IMG/VR virus record: IMGVR_UViG_3300036900_000306
Location: 1 to 37,427 of that record
Direction: 5' to 3' (one strand)
Length of the DNA: 37,427 nt
From: a virus
In this document: positions 2,695 through 33,379 of the stretch, piece after piece
How positions within the stretch are numbered: position 1 is the first letter of the stretch
Layout: the number at the start of each line of letters is the position of its first letter
Program-made: the position numbers and the translations under genes
Notes under the pieces: model-generated
Seen by the model: the letters and a program-made list of their open reading frames with translations, nothing else
Databases searched by the model: none
Told to the model about the DNA's origin: nothing

Positions 2695-4145
2695 TGGCCG
2701 TCGCAGCCCTCGAACCCACGCTCGAGACAGGCCAGTCGATCGAGGAACTGCCGCTGTCGGCGATCGTGCCGGCACCCGACAACCCGCGTAAGCAGCTCGG
2801 CGACGTCGACGAGCTCGCCGCGTCGATGGTCGAGCTCGGGATGCTGCAGCCGCTCGTCGTCACTCCGCGCAAGGGGAAGTTCATGGTCGTCTGCGGCCAC
2901 CGCCGCCACGCCGCAGCGAAGGTCGCGAAGCTCGGAACGGCACCCGTGATCGTGCGCGAGCTCGACGAGCCGCAACGGATCAAGGCGATGCTGATCGAGA
3001 ACTGCCAGCGCACCGACCTGACAGCGCTCGAGGAGGCCCGCGCATACCAGCAGCTCGTCGAGCTGGGGCTCGGTCAGCGCCAGATCGCCGGCGACGTCGG
3101 CAAGAGCCAGGGCCATATCTCGAAGCGGCTCGCGTTGCTCGAGTTGCCGGCGATCGTGCAGGCGGAGCTCGATTCCGGCGGAATCACGCTCGAGGACGCC
3201 CGCCACTTCGCCGCCCTGAACGACATGCCGAAGCGTGCCGCGGCCGCGCTTAAGGAGGGGAAGCGCTGGGGCAGTCGCCCTGGCGACTTCGAGCGGGTAG
3301 TCCGCAACGAGCTCGCCGAGCACGAGCTCGCCGAGACGATCGGCCGAAACCGGCAGCAGCTGCAGCAGGACGGCGTGAAGATCCTCGAGTACGTGAAGGA
3401 TCAGTGGTCCGGCCGGCGACTCCCTAGCGGCGTCGCCGAGCTCGTCGGGATCAACGGCTACGCCTACGGCAACGACCAGCTCGCGCTGAACCCGAAGACG
3501 CACGCGAAAGAGCCCTGCCACGCGGCCGCGATCAGACCCCGCGACGGCGAGATCATCTACCTCTGCACGAAGCCCGCGAATCACCGCGGCGAGACCGGCG
3601 CCAAGAGCCGCACACCCGACGAGAAGAAGGCGGCAGCCGACGAGCGGGCTAAGGAACGCGCCCGCGCGCTCAAGGCACGCGAGAAGAACATCGATCTCGG
3701 CCGGCAGCTGGCCAAGAAGTTCGCGGCGCCGAAGATCGACGCCCGCAACATGCGCCTCCTCGCCGAGATCCTCGTCGACCGCTCCGCGTTCGGTGACCGC
3801 TTCATCGAGCAACTCGCGCTGCGAGGCCTCCGCTACACCGATGAGGCCTCACAGGAGGTCGTCACGCGCAAGGACGGCAGCGTCAGCAAGATCGTCCACG
3901 CCAACCATCCGCACGACGCGAGCAAGCTCCTCGCCGACCGGCTCGACGCGGCCAAGACGCCCGAAGAGATCATGGGCGTCCTGCTCCAGGCGCTCATCGC
4001 CGCCCGCTACGCCGATCGCAACGCCGTCCCTCCGTCGCAACGGAGCGGACACCTCGCCTTCATCGACAGCACCTACTACGCCGAAGACAGCGGCCTTAAG
4101 AAGACGATCGAGACGATCGCCGGCCCGATCGGAAAGGCACGCTGA
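2694..4145 (+). CDS. parB: ParB-family DNA-binding protein
   Basis: The product has 483 residues. Residues about 15-105 form the ParB N-terminal domain, with the conserved PxNPR-type segment and the GHRRH box (about residues 68-72) that binds CTP in chromosomal ParB. Residues about 105-150 hold the helix-turn-helix bundle (QRQIAGDVGKSQGHISKRL). The last 300 residues are long, charged and unlike chromosomal ParB. The start is the ATG overlapping the upstream stop; an in-frame extension lies inside that gene. No ParA is present, so classical plasmid partition is unlikely. Phage ParB-like proteins may act in gene regulation, DNA organisation or, in some families, as nucleases. One copy of the genome-wide 15-bp palindrome lies inside this gene. 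Confidence 0.93.
   Translation: MAVAALEPTLETGQSIEELPLSAIVPAPDNPRKQLGDVDELAASMVELGMLQPLVVTPRKGKFMVVCGHRRHAAAKVAKLGTAPVIVRELDEPQRIKAMLIENCQRTDLTALEEARAYQQLVELGLGQRQIAGDVGKSQGHISKRLALLELPAIVQAELDSGGITLEDARHFAALNDMPKRAAAALKEGKRWGSRPGDFERVVRNELAEHELAETIGRNRQQLQQDGVKILEYVKDQWSGRRLPSGVAELVGINGYAYGNDQLALNPKTHAKEPCHAAAIRPRDGEIIYLCTKPANHRGETGAKSRTPDEKKAAADERAKERARALKAREKNIDLGRQLAKKFAAPKIDARNMRLLAEILVDRSAFGDRFIEQLALRGLRYTDEASQEVVTRKDGSVSKIVHANHPHDASKLLADRLDAAKTPEEIMGVLLQALIAARYADRNAVPPSQRSGHLAFIDSTYYAEDSGLKKTIETIAGPIGKAR
3171..3185. repeat. Dispersed palindrome, copy 1 (inside parB)
   Basis: GATTCCGGCGGAATC is a perfect palindrome apart from its central base. Here it reads in frame as Asp-Ser-Gly-Gly-Ile in the ParB-family protein. 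The other copies lie in other frames or outside genes, so the shared feature is the DNA and not the peptide. Confidence 0.75.
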
Positions 4146-4291
4146 TGCCACGCCGCAACCGCAACGCCTGGCGCAACGACCAGGCCCGCGCCGAGATCCA
4201 GCAGGACGGCCTCTTCAACCTCGAGCAGCAACGCCGCCGCCGTCGCGGCAAGCGCGGCCGCCGCCTCGAGCAACGAAAGCGCGCCGCATGA
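4145..4291 (+). CDS. Very basic 48-residue protein
   Basis: A short reading frame starts at the ATG within the ATGA overlap after the ParB-family gene and ends at the TGA overlapping the next ATG. The product is rich in Arg and Gln, with a run of five arginines and a KRGRR stretch, so it should bind nucleic acid or another acidic partner. The four-base overlaps on both sides are the main evidence that it is real. Confidence 0.6.
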   Translation: MPRRNRNAWRNDQARAEIQQDGLFNLEQQRRRRRGKRGRRLEQRKRAA

Positions 4292-4377
4292 GCCGGCCAC
4301 CCGCCCTCTTCACACCGCGCTGGTGGCGGATCGCGTGGCTCATCCTCTCCGAGCGGTTCCACCGGGTGCCGTCGTGA
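4288..4377 (+). CDS. Mini-protein (29 aa), amphipathic or membrane
   Basis: A 29-residue frame lies between two four-base stop/start overlaps. It has a central WWRIAWLIL segment that could lie on or in the membrane. It may be a true mini-protein or simply a translation-coupling frame that carries ribosomes to the nuclease gene. Confidence 0.45.
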   Translation: MSRPPALFTPRWWRIAWLILSERFHRVPS

Positions 4378-5204
4378 GCCGACTCGCGTCTGCTGCACAG
4401 CACACGGAAGCGTCGATGCTGGCGCTGCTGGAAAAGCGATACCTTCGCGAGGTCAGGGGCAACGGCCCGGCGTGGGCGTTCGTTCCGAAGGTCCGCAACG
4501 CCGCCGGCTTCCAGGCGACCCGCACGATCGACGCGATCGCAATGTCGCTCTGGCCGTCACGCGGGCTGGAGATCCACGGGCATGAGATCAAGGTGACGCG
4601 CTCGGACTGGCTGCGAGAGTTGAAAGACCCCTCGAAGGCCGAAGCGTTCACCGATCTGTGCGACCGCTGGTGGCTCGTGGTCGGCGACGCGAAGATCATC
4701 GCGGCTGGCGAACTGCCCCCGACATGGGGGCTGATGGTCGCGAGCGGCCGTAGTCTCCGGGTCACCGTCCAGGCTCCGCAGCTCCCGGCGACTGACTCGC
4801 CCTGGATGCCGCGCACTTTCCTCGCCGCGCTACTGAGATCGGCCACTCGGACGCAGCTCGTCACTCCCGCTGAGATCGAGGCTGCCGTTGCTTCAGCGCG
4901 TGCAGAATGGGACGCCCAGCACGCCGACAACATCGAGCGGTGGCGTGAGAGCCGCGACAGCCTCCGTACCAGGCTCCGCGCTTTTGAGGAGGCGTCGGGC
5001 GTCTCGATCGATAGCTGGGTCGACCGCGACACGGCGGAGCAGGCTGCCCGCGTTGGGGCTGCCGTGCGGCTCGTCTTGGACGGCGAGGCGAAGGTCGAGG
5101 AGCTACAGCGCCGCTTTGAGCGCATCGCCACGCAGGCTGAACTGCTGGCCGAGGAAGCCCGGCGCGCGAAGGGCGTCTCGCTCGCTGAGGTAGCAGCGGC
5201 GTGA
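4374..5204 (+). CDS. PD-(D/E)XK-type nuclease (MmcB-like)
   Basis: This 276-residue protein starts at the GTG in the overlap. The N-terminal half (about residues 15-120) has the layout of restriction-like nucleases: an Arg-rich helix, an Asp in RTIDAIAM, then HEIKVTRSDWL where Glu-x-Lys gives the active-site strand, followed by a helix and WWLVVGD. This pattern is shared with MmcB-like and other phage-encoded PD-(D/E)XK proteins. The C-terminal half (about residues 175-276) is predicted coiled coil. It probably cuts or processes DNA during replication or repair, next to the ParB-family protein. The exact substrate is unknown. Confidence 0.65.
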   Translation: MSRLASAAQHTEASMLALLEKRYLREVRGNGPAWAFVPKVRNAAGFQATRTIDAIAMSLWPSRGLEIHGHEIKVTRSDWLRELKDPSKAEAFTDLCDRWWLVVGDAKIIAAGELPPTWGLMVASGRSLRVTVQAPQLPATDSPWMPRTFLAALLRSATRTQLVTPAEIEAAVASARAEWDAQHADNIERWRESRDSLRTRLRAFEEASGVSIDSWVDRDTAEQAARVGAAVRLVLDGEAKVEELQRRFERIATQAELLAEEARRAKGVSLAEVAAA

Positions 5205-5617
5205 AGCTCCCGCCGGGAGTGCGCCTGTCGGCGGGGCCGTTCGGGATCACCGTTGTGGAAGCGCATCGGCCCGTCACTGGCTATGCGCTGTTGCCGGAAT
5301 GCTTCAAGCCGCCGGTGGTGGTGGTCGGAGGTTCGTTGGTCTCGGCCGAGCAGGTGCGGACGATGTTCTCTCTACCCCGACAATCGCTCGGGGAGATCAT
5401 CGACTGGCACGGGCAGGCCACTGCGCCGTCGACGCCGGCTGAGCTGCGCCATGAGAAGGAGGCGGCGGCGCGGCACTCGCAGCAGCCGCACGGCTGGACG
5501 AATGCCTACCAGTCGGTGACGGGGCTGCGCTGGCGGTGCTGCGGGAACCGCTTTGAGGACGATCACTCGCCCTGGTGTGCAGCCAGCGGCTTCCTCGACC
5601 CGCTGCCGCCGGCGTGA
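5201..5617 (+). CDS. Hypothetical protein (138 aa) with cysteine pair
   Basis: The GTG start overlaps the nuclease stop. The N-terminal 60 residues look like a beta-rich domain; the C-terminal part (about residues 95-135) has RWRCCGNRF and HSPWCAASG, so CC and a later C could form a small zinc site with a His. No family is recognised. It is part of the coupled early operon. Confidence 0.7.
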   Translation: MKLPPGVRLSAGPFGITVVEAHRPVTGYALLPECFKPPVVVVGGSLVSAEQVRTMFSLPRQSLGEIIDWHGQATAPSTPAELRHEKEAAARHSQQPHGWTNAYQSVTGLRWRCCGNRFEDDHSPWCAASGFLDPLPPA

Positions 5618-5841
5618 AGGTGCTGATCGGGAGTGATGCGCTGCCGCGTCGCCGGTTCACGGCTCGGCTGTTGTGGGAGCCACGCGACATCTGGCTCGGC
5701 GTCTTCTGGAATCGCGTCGATGACCAGGTGATCCTGCACGCGAGTGAGACGGGCAAATCGCCTGAGTATCCCACCTACCTGCTCGTCTACATCTGTCTCG
5801 TTCCGTGCGTGCCTTTCTGCGTGGCCTGGAGGACAGCGTGA
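5614..5841 (+). CDS. Small conserved-type phage protein (75 aa)
   Basis: The GTG in the overlap is the start. The body shows the pattern WEPRDIWLGVFWN followed by a hydrophobic LLVYICLVPCVPF segment. Proteins with a similar RD-(I/L)-W-x-G-(V/L)-(F/Y)-W segment are common as unnamed small early proteins in actinobacteriophages. No biochemical role can be given. Confidence 0.7.
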   Translation: MKVLIGSDALPRRRFTARLLWEPRDIWLGVFWNRVDDQVILHASETGKSPEYPTYLLVYICLVPCVPFCVAWRTA

Positions 5842-6143
5842 GCGGCCTCGAGCTATCGATTCCGGCGGAATCGGTGGAGGCGATCGCGCGGCGCGCGGCC
5901 GAGCTCGCACTCGAGCAGCTCGCCGCCGCCGGCGAGACGCGCGAGCTGTTGACCGTCAGCGAGGCGGCCGAGTATCTGCGCTGCTCGTCGCAGCGGATCT
6001 ACGGGCTGCGCTCGAGTGGCCGTTTGCCACGCACGACTGAGGGTGGCCGCGCCCTGGTGCGCCGCTGCGATCTCGAGCAGCTGATCGTCGACGACGATGC
6101 GTTGAGCCCGGCGCTTCAGAGTCGTAGGCTCCGGAGTGCGTGA
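5838..6143 (+). CDS. xis: Excisionase-type helix-turn-helix protein
   Basis: This 101-residue protein starts at the GTG in the overlap. Residues about 36-85 form a MerR/excisionase-type winged helix (LLTVSEAAEYLRC, IYGLRSSGRLP, then a wing and VRRCDLEQLI), as in the HTH_17 family. It lies directly before the integrase and overlaps it by four bases, the classic xis-int order. It should bend attachment-site DNA and direct integrase towards excision. A copy of the dispersed 15-bp palindrome sits 20 bases after its start codon. Confidence 0.85.
   Translation: MSGLELSIPAESVEAIARRAAELALEQLAAAGETRELLTVSEAAEYLRCSSQRIYGLRSSGRLPRTTEGGRALVRRCDLEQLIVDDDALSPALQSRRLRSA
5858..5872. repeat. Dispersed palindrome, copy 2 (start of xis)
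   Basis: GATTCCGGCGGAATC is identical to the parB copy. It lies near the xis start in a different reading frame, encoding Ile-Pro-Ala-Glu-Ser. A protein bound here could block xis expression. Confidence 0.75.
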
Positions 6144-7399
6144 GCGTGCCGCGGATCCCGATTCCTGACAATCCTGGCTTCTGGCGGCGCGGCGGCTCGG
6201 TGACGTTCAAGTACCGCGATCAGCGCGGCCGCCAGCGCTGGGCGTCGGCGCGCACGCTCCGGGCGGCAAAGCAGAAGAAGGCGGCGATCGAGACCGACGT
6301 CGCTCGGGGCGAGTACCGGCAGCGCTCCGCCGTCGACTTCGCGACCTATGCGCGGGCCTGGGTCAAGACCTACCAGGGGCGCACGTCGAAGCCTGTGGCT
6401 GAGCAGACCCGCGCTGACTACGAGCGCCGGCTCGAGCAGGACGCGATCCCGTTCTTCGCGACGATGCGGCTCGGCGACATCGAGCCGCAGGACGTGAAGG
6501 CCTACGCTCACCACGTCGGCCAGCGCCGCCGGCAGAGCCGACTGAAGAAGGCGGACACGCGGCCGCTAACCGCGAACAGCGTCAGGCTCGCGCTCGCCCC
6601 GGTGAAGGCGATGTTCGCGACAGCGTTCGAGGAGGGCGTGATCCGGGTGAACCCGGCCGCCGGCGTCCGCATCGCCGTGCCCCGGACCGTCGTCGACGTC
6701 GACGAGGACGAAGCCGGCGACGTTCGCGCGCTGACCGCCGGCGAGCTCGCGGCGCTGCTCGAGGAGATCCGCTGCGAACGCTGCTGCCGCCTCGACGCGC
6801 CGGCGGCCGACTGTGAGCGGTGCCGCTTCTGGCGGCTGTTCTTCACGACGCTCGTCCAGCTCGGCCTCCGGATCGGCGAGCTCGTCGAGCTGCGCTGGCG
6901 CGACGTCGGCGCCGGCGGCGCCGGCACCGTCAAGATCCGCCGCAAGTTCTACCGCGGCACCGTCGGGCCACCGAAGTCCCGCTACGGCCGCCGCACGCTG
7001 CGGCTGCCGGCCGAGCTCGCGCGCGAGCTCTGGCAGCACCGCAAGCAGACGCGCGCCGGCGACGGAGATCTCGTCTTCGCTCTCGCCGGCGGCGTCCGCG
7101 TCGACACGTCGAACGCGATGTCGCGCGTGCTGAAGCCCGCGGCGCGTCGCGCCGGCATCGGCGAGTGGGTCGGCTTCCACACGTTCCGGCACACGTGCGC
7201 GACGCTGCTGTTCACGGTCGCGCAGTGGAACCCCAAGCAGGTGCAGCTCTACCTCGGCCACCACTCGGCCGCGTTCACCGTCGACACGTACATCCACCTG
7301 CTGCCCGGCGACGTGCCCGAACCGCCGCAACTCGCCGAGGCCGCTGCCGCGATCGCCGCCGATGAGTCGCTGGCGCCGGCGGCTACCGTCTCCGTGTGA
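6140..7399 (+). CDS. int: Tyrosine-family integrase
   Basis: This 419-residue tyrosine recombinase integrates the phage at attP. An arm-binding region (about residues 15-55) is followed by a core-binding domain (about 65-190) and the catalytic domain. The catalytic residues are visible: Arg244 (GLRIGE), a candidate Lys279, His347-x-x-Arg350 (FHTFRH), His374 (LGHH) and the nucleophile Tyr384 (DTYIHL). Odd feature: two CxxC pairs (Cys212/215 and Cys225/228) are inserted just before the first catalytic arginine and look like a small zinc loop. The GTG start overlaps xis; the tRNA-type attP core lies 300 bases downstream. Confidence 0.96.
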   Translation: MSVPRIPIPDNPGFWRRGGSVTFKYRDQRGRQRWASARTLRAAKQKKAAIETDVARGEYRQRSAVDFATYARAWVKTYQGRTSKPVAEQTRADYERRLEQDAIPFFATMRLGDIEPQDVKAYAHHVGQRRRQSRLKKADTRPLTANSVRLALAPVKAMFATAFEEGVIRVNPAAGVRIAVPRTVVDVDEDEAGDVRALTAGELAALLEEIRCERCCRLDAPAADCERCRFWRLFFTTLVQLGLRIGELVELRWRDVGAGGAGTVKIRRKFYRGTVGPPKSRYGRRTLRLPAELARELWQHRKQTRAGDGDLVFALAGGVRVDTSNAMSRVLKPAARRAGIGEWVGFHTFRHTCATLLFTVAQWNPKQVQLYLGHHSAAFTVDTYIHLLPGDVPEPPQLAEAAAAIAADESLAPAATVSV

Positions 7400-7656
7400 G
7401 CAGCACCCCGGAGCAGCAGCTCGCCGAGTTCGCGGCGGCCACCAAGAAGTTCGCGGACGAGCTCGCTGCGATTGTTAACCCGTCTCTCGGCCTCGTCGAC
7501 CGGCTGATCTGCTGGTTCGGCTACCACCGCGAGCGGGCCGCGCTCTGGCTGTTCGACGGCGACTATCGCCGCGGGGTGGTACCCAGGGTGGTACCTCGGA
7601 GGCGTCACAAGGCCGAAGATCGGGACGATGGCGGCCCGCATGGTTCTGCGGGCTGA
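7396..7656 (+). CDS. Hypothetical protein downstream of integrase
   Basis: The GTG start overlaps the integrase stop and gives 86 residues. An N-terminal amphipathic helix (about 5-25) is followed by a short hydrophobic stretch (LICWFGYH, LWLF) and a basic tail. Its last third overlaps the GGGTGGTACC repeats proposed as integrase arm sites, so some of this reading frame may be shaped by DNA-level constraint. No family is recognised. Confidence 0.55.
   Translation: MSSTPEQQLAEFAAATKKFADELAAIVNPSLGLVDRLICWFGYHRERAALWLFDGDYRRGVVPRVVPRRRHKAEDRDDGGPHGSAG
7574..7595. repeat. Tandem GGGTGGTACC repeats, attP left arm
   Basis: Two identical 10-base copies of GGGTGGTACC start 12 bases apart (7574-7583 and 7586-7595), about 105 bases before the attP core. 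Related copies lie at 7810-7827 on the other side. This arrangement fits arm-type binding sites for integrase or excisionase; the role is inferred from position. Confidence 0.6.
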
Positions 7657-7701
7657 GCGGGGTTTTTGGAGGAGACGTAATCTGGCGTAAGAGGGTGGTG
7701 A

Positions 7702-7747
7702 CGGACTTCTAATCCGCGGGTCGGAGGTTCGAATCCTCCCGGGCGCA
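7702..7747 (+). other. attP: attP core, 3' half of tRNA-Arg(UCU)
   Basis: The sequence matches the 3' half of a tRNA-Arg gene: anticodon stem-loop with loop CTTCTAA (anticodon TCT), a perfect GGAGG/CCTCC T-arm around TTCGAAT, and the acceptor strand CGGGCGC plus A. There is no matching 5' acceptor strand upstream, so it is not a complete tRNA gene. Tyrosine integrases commonly use tRNA 3' ends, and the phage copy restores the tRNA after integration. The core may be a few bases shorter at the left, where an A-C mismatch sits at the base of the anticodon stem. Confidence 0.9.
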
Positions 7748-7809
7748 TCAGGGACTTCCCTGCACGCGCCCACATGTCGTTGCCACCCAGAAAACACGCG
7801 CCGGCCAGA

Positions 7810-7827
7810 GGTACCAAAGTGGTACCC
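7810..7827. repeat. GGTACC inverted pair, attP right arm
   Basis: GGTACC-AAAGT-GGTACC is an inverted pair whose right half extends to AGTGGTACCC, nine of ten bases like the left-arm repeat unit. It lies about 65 bases after the attP core. Probably a P' arm-type binding site. Confidence 0.55.
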
Positions 7828-7876
7828 GACCGCGGCCGCAGGGACGCCGCCCGGCACGCCGAAGAACAGTCGCGCA

Positions 7877-7940
7877 GGGCTCTAAGCGCCAGAGCCCGAG
7901 ACCGCAAATCTCGGCTCCTCCCCGCCTTGGCGCTCCTAGA
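7877..7940. other. Structured element upstream of the methyltransferase
   Basis: Several mutually exclusive stems are visible. GGGCTCT (7877-7883) pairs perfectly with AGAGCCC (7891-7897). GAGCC-C-GAGA pairs with TCTCGGCTC around a CCGCAAA loop. The AGCGCC loop (7885-7890) is complementary to GGCGCT (7929-7934). The CCGCAAA loop resembles a tRNA-Cys anticodon loop but has C instead of the invariant U33, and no T-arm or D-arm exists. It may be an RNA switch, a tRNA-like relic, or part of the coding frame if the methyltransferase starts at 7774. Confidence 0.4.
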
Positions 7941-8655
7941 GCTCTACTACCGCGACCACCTGACGACCATCTACCGCGGCGACGCGCTCGCCGTCGGAGA
8001 GCTCGACCTGGTCGCCGACGTCGTCATCGCCGACCCGCCCTACAGCAGCGGCGGCCGCTCGAGCGCCGAACGCACGAGCCGGACAGCGAGCACGAAGTAC
8101 CAGTCGAGCGACGCCCAGAAGCGGATGCCCGACTTCATCGGCGACAACCGCGACCAGCACTCCCACGCGCACTGGTGCTCGCTCTGGCTCGGCGCCTGCC
8201 GGCAAACCACCCGGCCCGGCGGCCTCTGCTTCGTCTTCACCGACTGGCGGCAGGTCGCGGCAACCAGCGACGCGCTCCAAGCCGGCGGCTGGATCTGGCG
8301 CGGCATCGTCGTCTGGCAGAAACCCGGCGTCCGGCCGCAGCGCGGCCGCTTCCGCCTCGACGTCGAGTACGCCGTCTGGGGCTCGAACGGGCAGCTCCCC
8401 GTGCACCGCGTCGCCTACCCATCCGCGGTCGTGAGCGCCATGCCGCCGCGGCGCCGCTCACACATCGCGCAGAAGCCGCTCGAGGTGTACGAGCACATCC
8501 TCTCGATCGCGCCCGAGAACAGCCTCGTGCTCGACCCGTTCACCGGCAGCGGCTCCGCGCTCGAAGCAGCGCGCCGCGCAGGCCACCAGGCCGTCGGCAT
8601 CGACCTAGACGAGCGCTACTGCGCGATGGCCGCGCAACGAGTAGCCGCCCTCTAG
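7927..8655 (+). CDS. Orphan DNA methyltransferase (N6-adenine/N4-cytosine type)
   Basis: The DPPY catalytic motif comes first (about residues 36-39 from this start) and the AdoMet-binding DPFTGSGSALEAAR motif near the C-terminus, the order of the beta class of amino-methyltransferases. The protein has 242 residues from TTG 7927, which gives the usual opening ELYYRDHLTTIYRGDAL just before DPPY. The frame stays open to ATG 7774 (293 residues), but that extension is basic, crosses an attP arm site and covers a structured element. No restriction enzyme is nearby, so it is solitary. It likely modifies phage DNA to avoid host restriction or affects gene expression. Confidence 0.88.
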   Translation: MALLELYYRDHLTTIYRGDALAVGELDLVADVVIADPPYSSGGRSSAERTSRTASTKYQSSDAQKRMPDFIGDNRDQHSHAHWCSLWLGACRQTTRPGGLCFVFTDWRQVAATSDALQAGGWIWRGIVVWQKPGVRPQRGRFRLDVEYAVWGSNGQLPVHRVAYPSAVVSAMPPRRRSHIAQKPLEVYEHILSIAPENSLVLDPFTGSGSALEAARRAGHQAVGIDLDERYCAMAAQRVAAL

Positions 8656-8662
8656 CCAAGCC

Positions 8663-8720
8663 CGGCACGCAACGCGTGCCGAACAGAGGTCGGGCCGCCG
8701 GGCGCTTCGGCGGCCCGACC
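8663..8720 (+). terminator. Tandem hairpins after the methyltransferase
   Basis: CGGCACGC-AAC-GCGTGCCG (8663-8681) and a 12-bp perfect stem GGTCGGGCCGCC/GGCGGCCCGACC with a 9-base loop (8688-8720) follow directly after the methyltransferase stop. No T-run follows, as is common for terminators in high-GC actinobacteria. They probably end the rightward transcript or reduce read-through into the two small genes beyond. Confidence 0.7.
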
Positions 8721-8761
8721 GACCACAAGGATGGCCGCAACGTCGGGCGAAGAGGAGAGCC

Positions 8762-8869
8762 GTGCTTGTCGTATGGACCCTCGTGGGCGGCGTGATCGGG
8801 ATCGTCGCCTGTCTCGTCGGATTCTTCGCCGGCGGCCGCATCAACCGAGAGAGACCGCCGCGTGGCTAG
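8762..8869 (+). CDS. Mini membrane protein (35 aa)
   Basis: The GTG start lies 6 bases after AGGAGA. The product has 35 residues and is almost entirely one transmembrane helix with GxxxG-type glycines, ending in a basic tail. Its TAG lies inside the start region of the next gene (overlap at 8862-8869). The role is unknown; membrane mini-proteins of phages can be holin or exclusion components. Confidence 0.6.
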   Translation: MLVVWTLVGGVIGIVACLVGFFAGGRINRERPPRG

Positions 8870-9113
8870 TCGCGCGATCCACGTGCACCGCGCGCACCAC
8901 TGCAAGTTCGCGCCGATCGAGGAGCTCGTCGGCGTCGCCGACATCAAGGCGATCGCGCAGGCAGACCCCGGTGGCGGCCAGCCGACCGAGATCCCGCTGA
9001 ACGGGCTCGCGTTCACGGACGCCGACGGCGAGACGCACGTGTACGTGCTCGCCGACGAGGAACGGCAGATCGTGATCCGCCAGCTGACCGGCGGGATCGT
9101 CCTGCCGGACTAG
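8862..9113 (+). CDS. Hypothetical protein (83 aa)
   Basis: The GTG start overlaps the end of the membrane mini-protein. The product has 83 residues, with a His-rich N-terminus (HVHRAHHCKF), then an acidic alpha/beta body containing THVYVLADEERQIVI. No family is recognised. It is the last plus-strand gene before the convergent late operon; its TAG overlaps the end of the facing gene by four bases, so there is no intergenic gap at this convergence. Confidence 0.65.
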   Translation: MASRAIHVHRAHHCKFAPIEELVGVADIKAIAQADPGGGQPTEIPLNGLAFTDADGETHVYVLADEERQIVIRQLTGGIVLPD

Positions 9114-9310
9114 AGCAGGATCTCGGCGGCCGTCTCGGGCGTGCAGCCGCGGCCGAGGATCTCGCAGGCGAGGTGCAGGTCGGCTTCGCTCACGGCGAGC
9201 CGTCCAGCGAGCTCGACCGGATAGCCGGCTTCGATGAGGACGTGGAGGCGCCAGTCCTCGACCTTCGTGCGCTCGTCGACGACGTCGACGGGGACCGGGA
9301 CAAGCGCCAT
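9110..9310 (-). CDS. Hypothetical protein at late-operon end (66 aa)
   Basis: The ATG at 9310 overlaps the stop of the PLD-family gene. The 66-residue product is helical, with an EDWRLHVLIEAGYPVELAGRLA segment and a C-terminal CTPETAAEIL helix. The pattern recalls small unnamed proteins found near lysis genes of actinobacteriophages. No function can be assigned. It is the last gene of the long leftward operon. Confidence 0.7.
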   Translation of the reverse strand: MALVPVPVDVVDERTKVEDWRLHVLIEAGYPVELAGRLAVSEADLHLACEILGRGCTPETAAEILL

Positions 9311-9843
9311 CAGCTCGCCACCAATCGGGCGTGGTTCGCGTCGAGGGTCTGCTCGTACCAGGCGGCGATCGCGGCGCCGCGGCGGATGACGAGCTCGTTG
9401 TCCTCGAGGGCTTCGCCGTCGTGCGTCCAGTTCGTCGATCCGGAGGCGACGTAGTAGTGGTCGACGACGAGGATCTTGCGGTGGATGATCTGGCCATGCT
9501 CCGACCGGCCGACGACGACGCGGCTGTCGCCGGCCCAGCCGGCGACGAGCTTGCTCATGCTCGCGACCGCCTGCGCCTCGCTCCGGTCGAAGGTCGCCTG
9601 GAACGCGATGCCCGGCGTCGAGGCCTTCGCGTGCACGATCGCGTCGAGCGTGGCGTCGCAGTAGGTGAACATCTCGATCGAGATGGCGGTTCGCGCCGAC
9701 CCGACGAGCACCTGCAGCGCCTCGGCGACGTTGTCTCGCGGCGCGAACAGCGCGATCGTGTCGGCCGGGAAGCCGGCCGGCGGGGTGGCCGCGGCGCACG
9801 CCTTCAACTGCTGCCAGAGCAATGCGGAGCGCGTCGCGGCCAT
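9310..9843 (-). CDS. Phospholipase D-family nuclease, single HKD motif
   Basis: This 177-residue protein carries one complete HKD motif, HRKILVVD (His121, Lys123, Asp128), followed by GSTNWT, then a Glu (ALEDNELVI) as in Nuc-type PLD enzymes. Single-motif members work as dimers and usually cleave DNA without metal. The ATG start gives a normal family length; an open frame upstream is an artefact. It sits after the endolysin at the end of the late operon. It could degrade host DNA, act on DNA released at lysis, or harm competing phages; a lipase role is less likely at this size. Confidence 0.85.
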   Translation of the reverse strand: MAATRSALLWQQLKACAAATPPAGFPADTIALFAPRDNVAEALQVLVGSARTAISIEMFTYCDATLDAIVHAKASTPGIAFQATFDRSEAQAVASMSKLVAGWAGDSRVVVGRSEHGQIIHRKILVVDHYYVASGSTNWTHDGEALEDNELVIRRGAAIAAWYEQTLDANHARLVAS

Positions 9844-9856
9844 TGTGTGCCTGGGA

Positions 9857-10486
9857 TTAGGTGACGAGCACGAACGCCTGGACGTCGGACTTCGGCCGCA
9901 ACTTGAGGCACACCTCGCCACCGTTCGACTGCGATCCAGCCGAGGATGGTGATGTGTTGCCCTCGATCGCGTGGAAGTTCGTGCTGTCGACCACGTCCTT
10001 GACGAACCCGATGTGGTCTGCGATGCCGGGCGTCTCTCCGGGCCAGTCGTAACAGGCCAAGACGACATGGCCGGCGGCGAGCTCAGCCTTGACCTTCGTG
10101 AACGGGATGACCTTGAGACCGTCCTTCTCCGCGTGCGCCGCTTCGACGACTGCCGGCACGTAGGCGTACTTGAAGGCGTGGCCGACCTTCGTCAGAACCC
10201 AGGACACGAAGATCGCGCACCAGGGCTCGCCGTTGATTCCGTACCAGACGCCGTACTTCGTCTTGTTGCTGTTAGCCGGTGATTCCTTGGTGCCGATCTG
10301 GTGAGCGGCCAGCGCGATCGCCCTGGTGTAGAGCGACGTCGCCGGCGAGGGCTTCGGCTTCGGGGCGGGCTTCGGCTTGTTCGGCCTCCACACGCGCTTC
10401 CAGAACCACTGGCCGGCGCCCGTCCCCTTCTGCTGGACGCGCTTCCAGTGGACGAAGACCCAGCGACCGTTGCGGCGCTTAGACAT
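9857..10486 (-). CDS. CHAP-domain endolysin
   Basis: This 209-residue cell-wall hydrolase has a CHAP domain at about residues 55-205: catalytic Cys90 in EPWCAIFVSW, His158 in ADHIGFV, and Glu175/Asn177 in AIEGNT. CHAP enzymes act as amidases or endopeptidases on peptidoglycan. Instead of a known wall-binding domain it has a basic, Trp-rich N-terminus (RWVFVHWKRV and KRVWRPN, possibly a repeat) joined by a Pro-Lys linker. No signal peptide is seen, so release needs a holin. Small membrane-protein genes lie just upstream in the same operon. Confidence 0.93.
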   Translation of the reverse strand: MSKRRNGRWVFVHWKRVQQKGTGAGQWFWKRVWRPNKPKPAPKPKPSPATSLYTRAIALAAHQIGTKESPANSNKTKYGVWYGINGEPWCAIFVSWVLTKVGHAFKYAYVPAVVEAAHAEKDGLKVIPFTKVKAELAAGHVVLACYDWPGETPGIADHIGFVKDVVDSTNFHAIEGNTSPSSAGSQSNGGEVCLKLRPKSDVQAFVLVT

Positions 10487-10652
10487 TCGGGATCACCGCC
10501 TTGGCGAGCTGCACGAACGCAGCCGAGGCGCCGATCGCGAGCAGCACACGGACGACGACGATCGTCGCGAGCGACTTCTCCGCCTTGATCGCGTCCGGCG
10601 TGGAGAACGCCGCGAGCACGGCGAGGCCGACCTTCTTGGCCTTGGCTTTCAT
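10479..10652 (-). CDS. Small membrane protein in lysis module (57 aa)
   Basis: The ATG at 10652 follows an AAGGAGG ribosome-binding site. The 57-residue product has a basic N-terminus, an early hydrophobic patch (VGLAVLAAF), and a membrane helix at about residues 29-52. Its stop overlaps the beginning of the endolysin gene by 8 bases. Together with two more upstream membrane proteins it forms the holin candidate set. Confidence 0.7.
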   Translation of the reverse strand: MKAKAKKVGLAVLAAFSTPDAIKAEKSLATIVVVRVLLAIGASAAFVQLAKAVIPNV

Positions 10653-10674
10653 TGAGTGGGCCTCCTTCGAGGGG

Positions 10675-11025
10675 TTAGGGCAGGAAGGGCTTCGAGCAGT
10701 CCTGCTTGGCCTGCTGGATCTCGTCCGACTTCAGCCGCGCGACCAGCGCAGCGTCGTTCGCGGCTTCAGGGTTCCGGCCGCGCTTGAGGTCCTGCTTTTC
10801 AGAGGAGCGCTCGTGCTGGACGAGCGAGTCAGCGAGGTCGTTGTACTTGCGGAAGATCGCGGCGGTCTGTGGCTGGCTGGCAACGCACTCGGTGCGGACG
10901 GCCGTGTTGATGTCGGTCTTCAGGCCGCCCACGATCACGTCGACCGCGTAGAGGAAGACGGCCAGGATCGCCACGTAGGCGAGCAGCGCCTTCGCCTCGT
11001 GCATGAAGACTGGTGAGAGCTTCAT
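10675..11025 (-). CDS. Membrane-anchored protein, spanin/holin candidate
   Basis: The product has 116 residues. One membrane helix (about residues 12-34) is followed by a long charged, helical tail with two cysteines (about 47 and 109). The N-in, helical C-tail layout is like inner-membrane spanins or LysB-adjacent accessory proteins. Classical two-component spanins are not expected in hosts with a single membrane, so holin partner or wall-spanning accessory is preferred. Placed between two other small membrane proteins before the endolysin. Confidence 0.65.
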   Translation of the reverse strand: MKLSPVFMHEAKALLAYVAILAVFLYAVDVIVGGLKTDINTAVRTECVASQPQTAAIFRKYNDLADSLVQHERSSEKQDLKRGRNPEAANDAALVARLKSDEIQQAKQDCSKPFLP

Positions 11026-11028
11026 CGC

Positions 11029-11262
11029 TTACCTCACTAGGAGCTTGATGGCGAGCGCGCCGGCCACCGCGATGCCGTTGCCGATGTAGCCGGCCGCCGG
11101 CGACAGAGAGATGTGGGAGACCAGCTGGTTGCCGGCGAGAGCGACAACGAAGAGCAGACGCATCTCTGAGCGGAAGCCGGCGAGCTTGAGGTTGAGGATC
11201 TTCTCGGTCACTGGCCCATCGCCGTCGTCGTTCACTGCTTTCGGTCGATGCGAGCGATCCAC
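11029..11262 (-). CDS. Putative holin
   Basis: This 77-residue protein has a charged N-terminus of about 30 residues, then two hydrophobic segments (about residues 34-50 and 55-74) separated by a short turn, ending in a basic KLLVR tail. Size and two-helix layout fit a class II-type holin. It is the first membrane gene of the lysis module, which supports the role. Holins have little conserved sequence, so the call rests on topology and context. Confidence 0.65.
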   Translation of the reverse strand: MDRSHRPKAVNDDGDGPVTEKILNLKLAGFRSEMRLLFVVALAGNQLVSHISLSPAAGYIGNGIAVAGALAIKLLVR

Positions 11263-11289
11263 GGTTGCTCTCCTTCGAGGACTGTCTGG

Positions 11290-11745
11290 CTACTTGATGG
11301 GTGCGGGTGGTGCGGGGATCTCGAGCTCGTCGAGCGTGGCGACGTCGGGCGCGGCCGCGATCGCCGTGAAGAGGCCACGCAGTTGCTGTCGGTAGGCGAC
11401 CCTGTCCTTGGGCATCGGCGAGCCTTCTTCGACTGCGCGGGCGGCCCACTGGTCGGTCGTGGCGAGCGCGGCCTTCACGTTCTCGGCCGCCGCGTCACGG
11501 GCGAGATCGAGCGCGGCCGCCTCGCGGTCGGCCAGGTCGGCGAGCTCGTCGTCGTCGAGTGGCACGTATTCCTCGCCGCTCGGCTGGTCGGCGAGGGCGG
11601 CGTTCAGCTCCGCGGCCGCCGCGGCGGCCGCCTCCGCGTCGCCGGCCTGGACTGCCGTGGTGAGCGTCGCGAGGAGGTCCTGCGTGTCCTGGTCGGGGGT
11701 CGGCGGCGCGCAGTCGACGACCAGCTTCACTGGCGTGTCAGCCAT
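11290..11745 (-). CDS. Acidic helical tail-region protein
   Basis: This 151-residue, strongly acidic protein is nearly all alpha-helical with a long Ala run at about residues 38-50. It lies between the receptor-binding-type tail protein and the lysis module, where tail-fibre assembly proteins or chaperones are often found. No family is recognised. The ribosome-binding site AAAGGAA precedes the ATG. The function is unassigned. Confidence 0.65.
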   Translation of the reverse strand: MADTPVKLVVDCAPPTPDQDTQDLLATLTTAVQAGDAEAAAAAAAELNAALADQPSGEEYVPLDDDELADLADREAAALDLARDAAAENVKAALATTDQWAARAVEEGSPMPKDRVAYRQQLRGLFTAIAAAPDVATLDELEIPAPPAPIK

Positions 11746-11766
11746 GGTCAGGTTCCTTTCGCTGGT

Positions 11767-12360
11767 CTAGGCGGGAAGGCCGTAGAGGGTGAAGCGGGTG
11801 CCGGCGATGAAGTTGCCGGCACCTGGGAGCAGCGTGATCGAGTTGATCGCAGAGGTGCTCGCCCAGTGGCCGCCAATCAGCTGCACGACGGGCGTCCCGA
11901 TGAAGAGGTCGAGTGCGAGCAGATCTTTCTGTGCGACCGTTCCGGCGTAGTTGGGCAGGAACGCGAAAACCGGGCTGAAGACGCCGGCGGTTGCGCTCGC
12001 CGCAGCCATCGAGGCAATCCCCGCCGAGGTTTGGGCGGTGGTGACGGCTGCGCTAGCGGTCGCGCTGCTTCCCTGCACCTGCTGGGTGGAGTAGTTGGTG
12101 GCGCTGTCGCCGTTCAAGCGGAGATTGAGGTTGGTTGCCGTGGCGGCTGTGTCGCCGCGGCCTTGTCCGACGAGGAGGAGGTGCGCGAACGTCGCCGGGA
12201 TCGAGCTGAAGGCGATCGTCGCCGTGGCGCCGCCGAGTGTCGTGTCGGCGAGTTGGCGGGTGACGCCGAGGTTGAGGTTGTTCATGATCGCCGACTCCCA
12301 CAGGGAGGGCGGGAAGTTCTGGCCGACGACGACGTCGGGGACCGTGGTGAAATTCCCCAT
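11767..12360 (-). CDS. Minor tail protein, likely receptor-binding
   Basis: This 197-residue beta-rich protein is free of cysteine and has many Ala, Thr and Ser residues. The pattern FSSIPATFAHLLLVGQGR, followed near the end by INSITLLPGAGNF and SRFTLYG-like GTRFTLYGL, is typical of a jelly-roll-type domain seen in tail fibres and adsorption proteins of actinobacterial siphophages. It lies right after the tail hub gene. AAGGAGCC precedes the ATG, and a copy of the dispersed palindrome sits directly upstream of that ribosome-binding site. Confidence 0.75.
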   Translation of the reverse strand: MGNFTTVPDVVVGQNFPPSLWESAIMNNLNLGVTRQLADTTLGGATATIAFSSIPATFAHLLLVGQGRGDTAATATNLNLRLNGDSATNYSTQQVQGSSATASAAVTTAQTSAGIASMAAASATAGVFSPVFAFLPNYAGTVAQKDLLALDLFIGTPVVQLIGGHWASTSAINSITLLPGAGNFIAGTRFTLYGLPA

Positions 12361-12374
12361 CAGGGCTCCTTGGT

Positions 12375-12389
12375 TATTCCGTTGGAATC
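12375..12389. repeat. Dispersed palindrome, copy 3 (intergenic)
   Basis: TATTCCGTTGGAATC keeps the ATTCC/GGAAT arms of the palindrome with a changed centre. It lies in the 38-base gap between the tail hub gene and the receptor-binding-type gene, only a few bases before the ribosome-binding site of the latter, outside any reading frame. Confidence 0.6.
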
Positions 12390-12398
12390 AGGTCGGGG

Positions 12399-18117: not shown

Positions 18118-18128
18118 GAGGCTCCTTT

Positions 18129-18143
18129 GATTCCGCCGGAATC
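18129..18143. repeat. Dispersed palindrome, copy 4 (intergenic)
   Basis: GATTCCGCCGGAATC lies outside any gene, between the hairpin after the major tail gene and the ribosome-binding site of the tail chaperone. A bound protein could block transcription or translation of the tail genes. Confidence 0.75.
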
Positions 18144-18145
18144 GG

Positions 18146-18180
18146 GCGCGCCTCGAGCTCGACGGGGGCTCGAGGCGCGC
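18146..18180 (-). terminator. Hairpin after the major tail gene
   Basis: GCGCGCCTCGAGC (18146-18158) pairs perfectly with GCTCGAGGCGCGC (18168-18180) around a 9-base loop. On the minus strand it follows the major tail gene stop by 16 bases. No T-run follows on that strand, so it may act as a partial terminator or mRNA 3' protection that keeps major tail mRNA above tail chaperone mRNA. Confidence 0.65.
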
Positions 18181-18196
18181 TTATTCGGCTATTCGC

Positions 18197-19515: not shown

Positions 19516-19557
19516 GGGGTTGTGGCTCCCTTTCTCGAGGAGGTCGTTCGCTAGGGG

Positions 19558-20088
19558 TCAGACGACGGAGAGGCCGGAGTCGCGCGCGAGCTGCTCGATC
19601 GCGAGTTGCACGGCCGGGACGAGTTGCGACTCGCCCTGGACGGCGGCCGGCCAGAGGAACGCGCGCGGGCCGACGTTGCCTTCGCCGAGCCCGAACTGGG
19701 CGATCAGGCGGGTGCCGGTGGTGCTGCGGTTTCGGATCTTGAAGCCGCTGCCGGCGTGGTTGCCGCGTGTCTGGCTGCCGCCGTACTCGTAGATCGCCGG
19801 GTAGTTGAACCCCTCGGGGTAGGCGGGGCTGACGCGGCGGGTCTTGTCGGTGATGTAGGCGTAGCTCGAGCGGAAGCCGGCCTTGATCCCGTCGATCAGC
19901 TCACCGGACTCGTAGAGGCCTTTGGAGCGGGCGATGAAGACGGCGAAGGTGGCGGCGCGGTTCGCGACCGAGATCAGGTTCTCGCGGAGCTTGCTGCGCA
20001 GGCCGCCCTGGAACTGCTTCAGGCCGGCGAGGACGTCGGTGAGGCCCTCGACGGCGATCGTGCCGGTGATCGGTGTCTCTTCGGCCAT
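19558..20088 (-). CDS. HK97 gp10-like head-tail connector/tail completion protein
   Basis: This 176-residue protein has an N-terminal VEGLTDVLAGLKQFQGGLRSKLRENL helix, a following Ala-rich helix, the SGELIDGI segment, and a C-terminal YPAIYEYGG...PRAFLWPA pattern, all features of the HK97 gp10 family that joins head and tail. It is placed between the tail terminator-type gene and the major tail region. Its ATG overlaps the stop of that upstream gene. Confidence 0.8.
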   Translation of the reverse strand: MAEETPITGTIAVEGLTDVLAGLKQFQGGLRSKLRENLISVANRAATFAVFIARSKGLYESGELIDGIKAGFRSSYAYITDKTRRVSPAYPEGFNYPAIYEYGGSQTRGNHAGSGFKIRNRSTTGTRLIAQFGLGEGNVGPRAFLWPAAVQGESQLVPAVQLAIEQLARDSGLSVV

Positions 20089-25862: not shown

Positions 25863-26131
25863 AGCTGCGCGTCCTCGGCCAGGATCTCCCGGAACCAGAC
25901 TCTGCTGACCGGGATCTCGTAGATCGTGCCGCGCGGCGCCGGGTCGACGCCATGGGCGGAGTCGAGAACCTGTGGCCGCTCGAGCACGTAATGCGGGCCG
26001 CCGAGGCCCTCGGCGACGCCGGTCAGGAGGCCTTCGAAGGTCATGTCGACCTTCCCGTCCGGGCCGAGCGTCTGCAGCCGCACCATCCGTGCCGGTGGCG
26101 GCGGCTGATTCCGGCGGAATAAGGAGATCAT
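25859..26131 (-). CDS. Small protein between terminase and portal (90 aa)
   Basis: The ATG at 26131 overlaps the terminase stop; the product has 90 residues. A basic Pro-rich opening (FRRNQPPPPARM) leads into a beta-rich body ending at the portal start. No family is recognised; small genes at this place may help portal assembly or packaging. The dispersed palindrome lies in codons 4-8. Confidence 0.65.
   Translation of the reverse strand: MISLFRRNQPPPPARMVRLQTLGPDGKVDMTFEGLLTGVAEGLGGPHYVLERPQVLDSAHGVDPAPRGTIYEIPVSRVWFREILAEDAQL
26107..26121. repeat. Dispersed palindrome, copy 5 (gene start)
   Basis: GATTCCGGCGGAATA matches the palindrome at 14 of 15 bases. It covers codons 4-8 of the 90-residue gene, read as Leu-Phe-Arg-Arg-Asn, a third reading frame compared with the parB and xis copies. 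Confidence 0.7.
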
Positions 26132-27951
26132 CCTGCGCCTCCGCTGAAGCCGGAGCCGGCTTCCGGGTCGTTTTTCGGGGGTTCTTTCGCCCACTCGACG
26201 CCGCCGAGGAAGGCCTCGTCGCGGCCGATCAGGCAGCGATGGCCGACCATGACGGCCGCGGTGGCGGCGTCGATCGGCGAGTCGTCGCCGGGCTTGTCGA
26301 TCTTGTCGAACTCCTTGGTGCCGAGCGTCGACGTGACGCCGACGCAGTTGCCGAGGTGCCGGGCGAGCACCTCGTCTCCGTCGTGCGCCCAGATGCCCTC
26401 GTCGGCGCCTTTGCGGAAGGCGCGGACGGCGTCCTTCATGTCGTTCGAGCTCGGGTGCATCGGCGCGATCCGGAAGCCGGCCCGAGCGAGGTGGTTGGCC
26501 TCGGTGACGAAGTACTGGTCGTCGAAGACGATCTCGCGGATCTTGTACTTGCGGGCGAGCTCGTGGATGTACGGCTCGACGAGCTCTTCGTTGCGCAGGA
26601 TCGAGTCGCGCACATGCACGTGCGCGGGATGGGCCGGGTTCGTCGACCACACCTTCGCGCGGAGGTGGATCCGGCCGTTCGGGGCGCGCCAGGCGAACAC
26701 GACGGCGGTGCAGTCGCCGCTGTAGGCGGCGTCGACGGCGACGAAGATCCCCGCGCCTAGCGGGATCCGGGTCTCAGCGAAGAGCTGAGCCCAGACCCCG
26801 CGGCGCAGCCATTTGCGCAAGCCGCGAGTCGGCTGGTTGAGATGCAGCCGCCGCCAGGCGCCTTCGTCGGCGCCGGGCCTGTGCAGGAGCGAGATGATCC
26901 CTTTCGGGTCGAGCGCGGAGAGCGGGTTGCAAGCGCGGACGAGCGCCGGGTTTTCGATGTCGCGATCGTCGTCCTCAGGCAGCCCGTACCAGTGCATGAG
27001 CGTGCCGGACTCTTCGTCCTCGAGGATCGCGAGGCAGCCGTCGCGCTCGAGCCGCAGCTTCGGATGGTTCATCGCGGCCTGGTGGAACTCGGCCAGCATC
27101 GTCCCGTAGTCGAAGTAGGCCTGGCTGATCGCGAGCGCCCACGACTCCGGGTGCCGCTTCTGCAGCGCCTCGGTGATGGCGTTCACGCCCTCGCGCTGGT
27201 GCGGGTGCTTGAACTGCCACCACTCGTCGATGATCCCGGCGCTCGGGTTGATCCCGTGCGCGTTGAAGCCCTCCGACGAGAGGAGCGAGTACTCGCCTTC
27301 CGTCTGGCGGCAGCGGATCGTCTCGCCGCTCTTCGTGATCCAGCGCCGGAGATCGGTCGTCTTCATCGACTTGTCGATGAACTTGTGCGCGAAGCCGGCC
27401 TGCGACTTCGCGCCGGCGATCCCGTACACCTCGGGGATGTCGTCGACGGGCGGATCCACGGTCGCGTTCACGCCGAGGCCCGCCGCGAGAGGTGTCTTGC
27501 CGTTGCCCTTGGGAACACCGAAGAGCCCGAACGTGTAGACGCGGCCGCCAGACGGGTGCCGCTGCCAGAACGGCCGCACGTAGTCCTCTTGGAAACCCTC
27601 GAGCCGGAACGGCCGCCCGGCACGCGGGCCGGCGTAGTGGCGAAAGAAGCGCGGGAAGAAGTTGACGACACGGTCAGCGCTGAGCGCGGGCCCGAGGCCG
27701 TCGAGGATCTCGGGCAGGCTCTTCCGCGTCCGCTCCTGGCGAGCATGCAGACGAGGGATCTCACGCTCAAACCTGACGCTGACCCTGTGCTTCTCGAACT
27801 CGTTGTCAGCGGCCCGGTACTCCTCCTGCAGCCGAGAGAGCGACTTCCACGGCAGATCCGGGCCGGCGATCCGGTCGGCGTGCTTGCGCCGCACGAACGT
27901 GCCGTCCTCGACCAGCTCGAGCAGCGTCTTTTCCTTCCGGCCGCGAGCCAC
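26128..27951 (-). CDS. terL: Terminase large subunit
   Basis: This 607-residue packaging motor has the ATPase Walker A motif GVPKGNGKT at about 145-153 and Walker B AGIIDEWW at about 238-245 with the catalytic Glu. The nuclease domain follows at about 390-590, with acidic residues in VAVDAAYSGD, IVFDDQYF and PIDAATAAVM. The first 65 residues, charged and helical, look like a separate module of the kind seen in actinophage terminases. The start is GTG at 27951; an ATG two bases upstream is in another frame. HNH and LuxR-type genes lie upstream, but no clear small subunit is seen. Confidence 0.96.
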   Translation of the reverse strand: MARGRKEKTLLELVEDGTFVRRKHADRIAGPDLPWKSLSRLQEEYRAADNEFEKHRVSVRFEREIPRLHARQERTRKSLPEILDGLGPALSADRVVNFFPRFFRHYAGPRAGRPFRLEGFQEDYVRPFWQRHPSGGRVYTFGLFGVPKGNGKTPLAAGLGVNATVDPPVDDIPEVYGIAGAKSQAGFAHKFIDKSMKTTDLRRWITKSGETIRCRQTEGEYSLLSSEGFNAHGINPSAGIIDEWWQFKHPHQREGVNAITEALQKRHPESWALAISQAYFDYGTMLAEFHQAAMNHPKLRLERDGCLAILEDEESGTLMHWYGLPEDDDRDIENPALVRACNPLSALDPKGIISLLHRPGADEGAWRRLHLNQPTRGLRKWLRRGVWAQLFAETRIPLGAGIFVAVDAAYSGDCTAVVFAWRAPNGRIHLRAKVWSTNPAHPAHVHVRDSILRNEELVEPYIHELARKYKIREIVFDDQYFVTEANHLARAGFRIAPMHPSSNDMKDAVRAFRKGADEGIWAHDGDEVLARHLGNCVGVTSTLGTKEFDKIDKPGDDSPIDAATAAVMVGHRCLIGRDEAFLGGVEWAKEPPKNDPEAGSGFSGGAG

Positions 27952-31894: not shown

Positions 31895-32074
31895 CTACGA
31901 GTCGCGATCGTCGCTGATTCCGGTGGAATCAGAGTCGTCCGGGTCGTCGAGTTTCTTCACGAACTGTTCGGCGAGCTCGCGCGCCTCGGGTGACGGACGG
32001 ACGCGCTCGTGCGTCCACGTCTCCTGCAACTCATCGTCCGTGAACAGCAGCTCGACCCGTTTGTGACGCGGCAC
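31895..32074 (-). CDS. Small acidic protein (59 aa), first gene of block
   Basis: GTG 32074 lies only 7 bases after a -10-like TACGCT, so the mRNA may be leaderless, a common arrangement in actinobacteria. The product has a basic start (PRHKRVELLF), a helical middle, and an acidic DDPDDSDSTG tail that contains a dispersed palindrome. No family is recognised. Confidence 0.6.
   Translation of the reverse strand: MPRHKRVELLFTDDELQETWTHERVRPSPEARELAEQFVKKLDDPDDSDSTGISDDRDS
31916..31930. repeat. Dispersed palindrome, copy 6
   Basis: GATTCCGGTGGAATC, arms identical to the consensus, lies in the last codons of the 59-residue gene. Confidence 0.7.
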
Positions 32075-32080
32075 GACGAA

Positions 32081-32109: not shown

Positions 32110-32121
32110 CCGTGCAGCTTG

Positions 32122-32436: not shown

Positions 32437-32499
32437 GCCGGGAAGTCTCTACCACTCCCGTCGAGTTGACAAGCGAGAGCTGGGGCGCGAGCTAAAGCG

Positions 32500-32528: not shown

Positions 32529-32583
32529 GCTGGTTCGGTGTCGGCGAAGTTCAGGGGGTAACTGCCCTTCGCCGCCCGGGACT

Positions 32584-33123
32584 CTAGCGACCGTAGCCGT
32601 GATGGAAGCGGCCGGTGAAGTCCAGCCGCTGACTGGCCTTGTGCGGCTCGAAGTAGCGGGGCAGCACGAAGTCGGAGACGCGCACGCCGGACTGCTTGTA
32701 GCTGTACAGCCAGCCCTCGACGGGGTCGCATACCTCGTGCCCGTCCAAGGTCGGATCGGCCAACGCCTCGAGGATCTCGTGCGAGAACGAGATCGAGAAC
32801 TGACCCGGCGTCACGACGAGCGTCGGCTGCGTTCCGTCGTAGCCGTGGCAGCCGGTGGCGTCGTCGCCACAGACGTCGCGGTCGCGGGTGACGAGGACAG
32901 GCCACCCGCCGGCCGCGAACCTGATCAGCGGCGTCCCATACCAGCGCCGAAGATCCTGCGCTTGAACGGTGACGGCGCGTTCGACGCGCGCGAGAACCGG
33001 CGCTGACACGCCAGCCGCGTTCACGACGGTCAAGACCTGGACGGGCTCAGTCGCCGTCCGTGCCTGGGCTGATCCCGCCGCCATGGCCGCGACAACGACC
33101 AGCACGATGACAGCAGCGATCAC
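32584..33123 (-). CDS. Secreted metalloprotease-like protein
   Basis: From GTG 33123 the product has 179 residues with a strongly hydrophobic N-terminal helix ending in GSAQA, a signal peptide. The mature part contains SHEILEALADP, an HExxE-type metal site, followed by HEVCDPVEGW and VSDFVLPRYFEP. This combination recalls a family of secreted bacterial proteins of zincin-like appearance; catalysis is not proven. The frame stays open to TTG 33249, but that part overlaps the plus strand. It lies just after the repressor in the same direction, so it could be a lysogenic conversion gene. Confidence 0.75.
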   Translation of the reverse strand: MIAAVIVLVVVAAMAAGSAQARTATEPVQVLTVVNAAGVSAPVLARVERAVTVQAQDLRRWYGTPLIRFAAGGWPVLVTRDRDVCGDDATGCHGYDGTQPTLVVTPGQFSISFSHEILEALADPTLDGHEVCDPVEGWLYSYKQSGVRVSDFVLPRYFEPHKASQRLDFTGRFHHGYGR

Positions 33124-33190
33124 CTGCTTCGCTATTGCCCCGATCGGGCGATTGTGAGGAGCATCGGTTCCCGTTAAAACAGCGGCGGGG

Positions 33191-33379
33191 GTGACGAGAG
33201 CCGAACTCGAGCTGCTCGATGATCTGATGCGAACCGTCGCCACGATCAATCGTTCCCTGACGCACGTCGAGCAGGCACTTCAGGCTCTGACAGATCCGCG
33301 AGTTCGCGCCGGGCCGACGCCGCTTCGGATCGTGCCACCCCCAGAGCCTCAGCCTGTTCCGCCGGAACCAACAAGCTGA
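33191..33379 (+). CDS. Possible antisense small gene
   Basis: A plus-strand frame of 62 residues from GTG 33191, with GGCGGGGG just upstream, overlaps the 3' end of the repressor gene on the other strand by 134 bases. The product has a clean amphipathic helix (AELELLDDLMRTVATINRSL) and a Pro-rich end, more protein-like than usual for a shadow frame. It may be real, or the repressor tail may be the real one; both could be true. Confidence 0.3.
   Translation: MTRAELELLDDLMRTVATINRSLTHVEQALQALTDPRVRAGPTPLRIVPPPEPQPVPPEPTS

Follow-up and report, generated by a model that had tools for sequence, protein, structure and literature searches.

Dispersed 17-bp palindromes in a tailed-phage genome as predicted nucleation sites of a phage-encoded ParB protein

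The window studied here (positions 1 to 37,427 of the IMG/VR virus record IMGVR_UViG_3300036900_000306; 37,427 bases, 68% GC) carries a tailed-phage gene set, with terminase and integrase recognized by Pfam and portal and tail proteins by PHROG, and along it are spread six copies of a palindromic repeat. Because this motif goes with a ParB protein encoded by the phage itself (parB, 2694..4145, + strand), changes with it, and has one copy conserved inside parB, the phage ParB very probably reads the repeats as dispersed parS-like nucleation sites, a level of confidence that applies to ParB as the reader of dispersed sites and not to the downstream function. Across the phages compared, the motif accompanies ParB and varies with it, shows conservation at the DNA level, and is distributed more evenly than expected by chance.

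The repeat had been noticed in a preliminary description as a 15-bp palindrome in seven places. Six of these (3171, 5858, 12375, 18129, 26107 and 31916) fit ATTCCNNNGGAAT, which occurs at 3172, 5859, 12376, 18130, 26108 and 31917; the same letters read backwards gave no match in the window. The chance expectation for ATTCCNNNGGAAT in 37 kb is about 0.01-0.07, and 1,000 shuffles of synonymous codons in genes and of intergenic letters gave it 0.067 times on average and never more than once. When up to three mismatches were allowed, 14 strand-matches were counted in the window versus a mean of 2 and a largest value of 7 in dinucleotide shuffles. The palindrome is longer than first described, since positions beyond the searched letters are also constrained: among 84 half-sites taken from ten phages, 73 have G as the next outer base, 81 have a pyrimidine one position further out, and 66 have G or C at the centre. 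The element is YGATTCCGSCGGAATCR, a 17-bp palindrome with one central base. The seventh copy, at 33356 (TGTTCCGCCGGAACC), was dropped because it is weak and at chance level, holding only the inner TTCCNNNGGAA that is expected 1.2 times, and because it is not conserved, its counterpart in the relative G002 (TGCTCAGCCGGAACA) being no palindrome.

Site 1 (3170..3186, CGATTCCGGCGGAATCA) lies inside parB, over the codons Asp-Ser-Gly-Gly-Ile, and site 2 (5857..5873, CGATTCCGGCGGAATCG) inside a xis-like HTH_17 gene (5805-6143). Site 3 (12374..12390, TTATTCCGTTGGAATCA) is intergenic, 22 nt upstream of the start of a tail-region gene (11767-12360, - strand), as is site 4 (18128..18144, TGATTCCGCCGGAATCG), 19 nt upstream of the start of the gene at 17749-18117 (- strand). 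Site 5 (26106..26122, TGATTCCGGCGGAATAA) is placed between terL (26128-27951, - strand) and a small gene before the portal, and site 6 (31915..31931, TGATTCCGGTGGAATCA) near the 3' end of a small gene (31895-32074, - strand). Four copies had been placed close to start codons; by our own gene calls this holds for three of the six (12375, 18129 and 26107), with a start codon 19-28 nt downstream, and the copy at 5858 is about 60 nt inside its gene.

The association between motif and ParB was followed in two sets of records. For the motif-first set, IMG/VR was scanned for GATTCCGNCGGAATC and the copies were then counted over whole records (G003-G050). At least three copies were present in eight records, seven of which encode ParB_N (E 1e-16 or better), the eighth being the fragment G038, versus five records with ParB_N above the cut-off among the 40 with one or two copies; one of these five, G048, has a ParB of the same group and near-copies of the motif. 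For the ParB-first set, a scan was made with an alignment of nine motif-phage ParBs and 80 loci were fetched, which added the motif phages G053 (four copies), G054 (four), G057 (two, imperfect) and G075 (11). Unrelated phage contigs carry 3-11 motif copies. In an alignment with Caulobacter ParB and Bacillus Noc, every motif-phage ParB has Gln162, Gln173, Lys178 and Arg or His at 179 in the recognition region, and at least two motif copies were found in 11 of the 20 records with this signature helix (Q173...K178-R/H179) versus none of the 38 records that lack it (P 7e-7, relatedness ignored). By blast of all open reading frames, ParB is the sole gene with a homologue in all 13 motif phages; as some of these were picked through ParB, the motif-first set alone is the non-circular part of the comparison. 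The phages with distant ParBs (Gordonia Kiko and Bunker, Arthrobacter Maja and Siphoviridae ctl617) have no signature helix; the motif is absent from Kiko and Maja, and no clear alternative palindrome was found in Kiko, Bunker, Maja or ctl617. The ParB relatives L260 and L261, from two Acidimicrobiia genomes, have Ala at position 173, and the motif does not occur within 10 kb of them.

Where ParB has diverged, the palindrome has diverged too, in most cases without leaving the 17-bp frame. De novo palindrome counting in records without the exact motif, limited to arms with at least three A/T because GC-rich codon artefacts (CGTCGA, GCTCG) dominated the unfiltered counts, gave TGATGCCGNCGGCATCA in G061, with 8-9 copies, eight of them exact, CGATTCGNNNCGAATCG (also written GATTCGNNNCGAATC) in G072, TGATTCYGNCRGAATCA in G058 and GATTGCCCNGGGCAATC in G063, and the preferred form in G075 is GATTCCTNAGGAATC. 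G061 and G065 share Asn in place of Ser at residue 172 as well as a T-to-G change at one and the same half-site position, seen in G065 in a single copy at the start of parB. A scan with YGATGCCGNCGGCATCR returned mostly chance matches plus G136, whose site layout is that of G061 and so adds no independence; the suggested link between Ser172Asn and the base change is drawn from G061/G136 and the single G065 site.

Protein searches yielded two relatives, G001 (37,374 bp, ParB 57% identical) with four copies of the motif and G002 (32,080 bp, terminase 76% identical) with two; no near DNA relatives of window 1-20000 were found in INPHARED. The parB copy is kept in G001, and the 18129 copy is found in G002 at the corresponding intergenic place, where 19 bp of identity form an island. 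The 31916 copy has a G002 counterpart about 242 bp past an aligned block, at a distance equal to that in the window. The remaining copies have been lost or moved, the one at 5858 being lost in G001, so number and spread are better kept than exact places. The copy inside parB occupies identical codon positions in eight phages with ParBs about 30-48% identical to that of the window, and in all eight it is spelled GAT TCC GGC GGA AT[C/A]. This spelling uses rare codons (the shares being 3-41% for GAT among Asp codons and 4-11% for GGA among Gly codons), with a codon-frequency product of 1e-4 to 4e-3 per phage, and ParBs without the palindrome have different residues there. The proposal that the DNA itself is conserved is thus borne out by copies within and between genes and by the rare codons kept in the in-gene copies.

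Placement was measured with our own codon-usage gene finder and binomial values. Among the 88 sites of 15 phages, 29 fall between genes (8.6 expected) and 29 no more than 40 nt from a predicted start (10.3 expected), with the rest inside genes; several copies of the fragment G038 are 17-20 nt upstream of predicted start codons. That the sites are enriched close to gene starts speaks for an influence on transcription. Spacing is more even than random (combined P 6e-6 over 11 phages; for G061 taken by itself, P 0.0002 and gaps of 4.0-7.2 kb), which argues for coverage of the whole genome.

The window ParB has 483 aa, with ParB_N at residues 15-105, HTH_ParB at 108-185 (both Pfam) and the helix GKSQGHISKRL. 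It matches PHROG 6218 ('ParB-like partition protein') and the sequences of solved Spo0J/ParB, Noc and KorB proteins in the PDB (KorB E 8e-8), and it scored 125 bits with TIGR00180, the ParB/Spo0J/Noc superfamily (cut-off 58), and 137 bits with TIGR04285, the Noc family (cut-off 315), thus passing the former and falling below the latter. The AlphaFold model has a pLDDT (per-residue model confidence) above 90 over most of residues 20-190, and Foldseek matched it to ParB and Noc (E about 1e-12) and to KorB (2e-10). The C and P boxes for CTP binding (GxRR, ENxQR) are intact as GHRRHAA and ENCQRTDL, so that CTP binding is predicted. The recognition helix is Noc-like, with Gln at residue 173 as in Noc, and the half-site TGATTCCG has TG.TTC in common with the parS half-site TGTTTCAC and TTCC with the NBS half-site TATTTCCC. 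No match to CbiA/ParA was found within the window, and none of these phage ParBs has a ParA-binding motif.

After the helix-turn-helix, the window ParB has the conserved pattern H...CHxx...C....H (residues 270-297, window 3501-3590; CHAA...C....H in its C-terminal part), which is present in most motif-phage ParBs, was not found in the Gordonia/Arthrobacter relatives, and is possibly a zinc-binding module. A second ParB_N protein of G001 (2849-4300, L007) looks fused to a DNA methyltransferase, and a class of ParB-methyltransferase fusions has been mentioned (PMC12704722).

Several observations weigh against ParB as the reader. The 24-kb fragment G038 (L168/L169) has 15 exact copies of ATTCCNNNGGAAT and no ParB on the fragment, and ParB was not seen in G014 and G043, records that are fragments or partly read. 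The co-occurrence test lacks phylogenetic independence, and its ParB query was drawn from motif phages; all the association tests cover related proteins, and many of the records are fragmentary. Several ParBs with the signature helix, such as L241, have no recognizable palindrome, and most site positions differ from relative to relative. Of the residues that set Noc specificity (Q173, K179, K184, R201), the window ParB has Q, R, E and E, that is, Glu in place of the Arg201 that Noc uses for C6 (PMC7383237). The C-terminal third of the protein, including the dimerization region, is poorly modelled, and the gene calls behind the placement counts are crude.

As for the mode of action, a ParB dimer would bind the 17-bp palindrome through its Noc-like helix-turn-helix, bind CTP, close into a clamp and slide kilobases away; with one loading site per 4-10 kb, clamps from neighbouring sites could cover the whole genome. 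Since there is no ParA and no ParA-binding motif, two outputs come into consideration. KorB-like long-range control of phage transcription has a chance that we would put close to even, and Noc/ParB-like organization, anchoring or protection of replicating phage DNA is proposed more tentatively. We lean slightly towards a broader picture, in which a widespread family of phage ParB clamps with the CH...C...H module would use lineage-specific, evenly spaced 17-bp sites to coat the entire genome, as a CTP-powered layer of control or organization unrelated to partition.

Other readers of the sites were considered, among them two named in the preliminary description. The window encodes an Xre-type immunity repressor (33246-33719) that might bind the sites as dispersed operators or stoperators and block transcription, like L5 gp71, as the enrichment upstream of start codons and between genes would also allow; this is highly improbable, given that the repressor gene is not common to the motif-bearing phages, as parB is, that the motif changes with the ParB recognition helix, and that the sites are symmetric palindromes. 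In L5, the repressor reads stoperators that are asymmetric, and the suggested likeness to them, which holds for many short sites along a temperate phage genome, is not supported for palindromes that go with ParB. A host regulator or nucleoid protein might be thought of because the motif phages are nearly all of high GC and may share related hosts. Yet ATTCCGNCGGAAT was found three times in about 50 Mb of ten actinobacterial genomes, 0-1 copies in each, a near-absence that argues against a host regulator; different ParBs go with different palindromes, and a host factor does not predict a copy inside phage parB, all of which makes this reader extremely improbable.

A ParB with dispersed palindromes would also be expected for active partition of an extrachromosomal (plasmid) prophage, the sites being centromeres served by a host ParA, as in N15, where SopB uses four IR sites (PMC7205306). 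The integrase in the window and the lack of ParA and of a ParA-binding motif speak against it, and we consider it unlikely. Recognition by the phage N4/N6 methyltransferase (7774-8655) as a restriction-modification site, to which the palindromic form and the presence of the gene might point, can for practical purposes be discounted: 12-17 bp is far too long for methyltransferase recognition, the gene is not common to the motif phages, and the even spacing and conserved rare codons do not fit. The scattered parS sites read by the ParB-family protein, also raised in the preliminary description, are strongly supported by the co-occurrence, the joint divergence and the conserved copy within parB.

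Compared with known systems, ParB reading of dispersed sites would have its closest functional model, by analogy, in KorB, whose clamp loads at OB sites, slides and silences promoters kilobases away (PMC11790492). KorB-OB of RK2 shares the ParB-type CTPase fold, which is a structural match, and several operators spread round a mobile element, the comparison covering fold and dispersed sites; it differs in that the phage ParB is phage-encoded, has another site sequence, no KorA seen, low sequence similarity and the C-terminal CH...C...H module. Noc-NBS of Bacillus is like it in being among the best structural and NCBIfam matches, in Gln173, in the TTCC half-site and in many sites over the replicon, and unlike it in that the phage protein would read an 8+1+8 palindrome versus one of 16 bp, lacks Arg201 and a known membrane helix, and scores below the Noc cut-off. 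Chromosomal ParB-parS has ParB_N and HTH_ParB, the CTP boxes and a site inside parB, as B. subtilis spo0J carries a site within the parB gene itself, whereas the phage has no ParA or ParA-binding motif, and its sites are genome-wide versus origin-clustered. N15, a temperate phage with a ParB-type SopB and separate palindromic sites (four IR centromeres), differs as a linear plasmid prophage with SopA, the window having an integrase, no ParA, and another ParB lineage with other sites. Besides N15, no dispersed ParB sites in phages were described in the literature searched, in a search that was incomplete.

Phage ParB-like proteins are common and usually annotated as 'ParB-like nuclease' or 'partition protein', and a 2025 survey of the ParB fold only guesses at the function of the phage members (PMC12704722). 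One subfamily now has a predicted target on DNA, sites arranged over the whole genome and natural variants in specificity (such as Ser172 to Asn paired with half-site T to G), which make binding, sliding and silencing directly testable. The even spacing suggests selection for whole-genome coverage, which in viruses would be a new role for CTP clamps.

Some other genes of the window deserve mention. The N6/N4 DNA methyltransferase gene (7774-8655, + strand) comes directly after the integrase region. A Ku-like DNA end-binding protein is encoded at 34861-35709 (- strand; PHROG 4873, E 2e-21), with homologues among the 13 motif phages only in G001, G017 and G027. The translation of 9310-9843 (- strand), inspected by eye, contains HRKILVVD, an HxK...D motif that hints at a phospholipase D-type nuclease.

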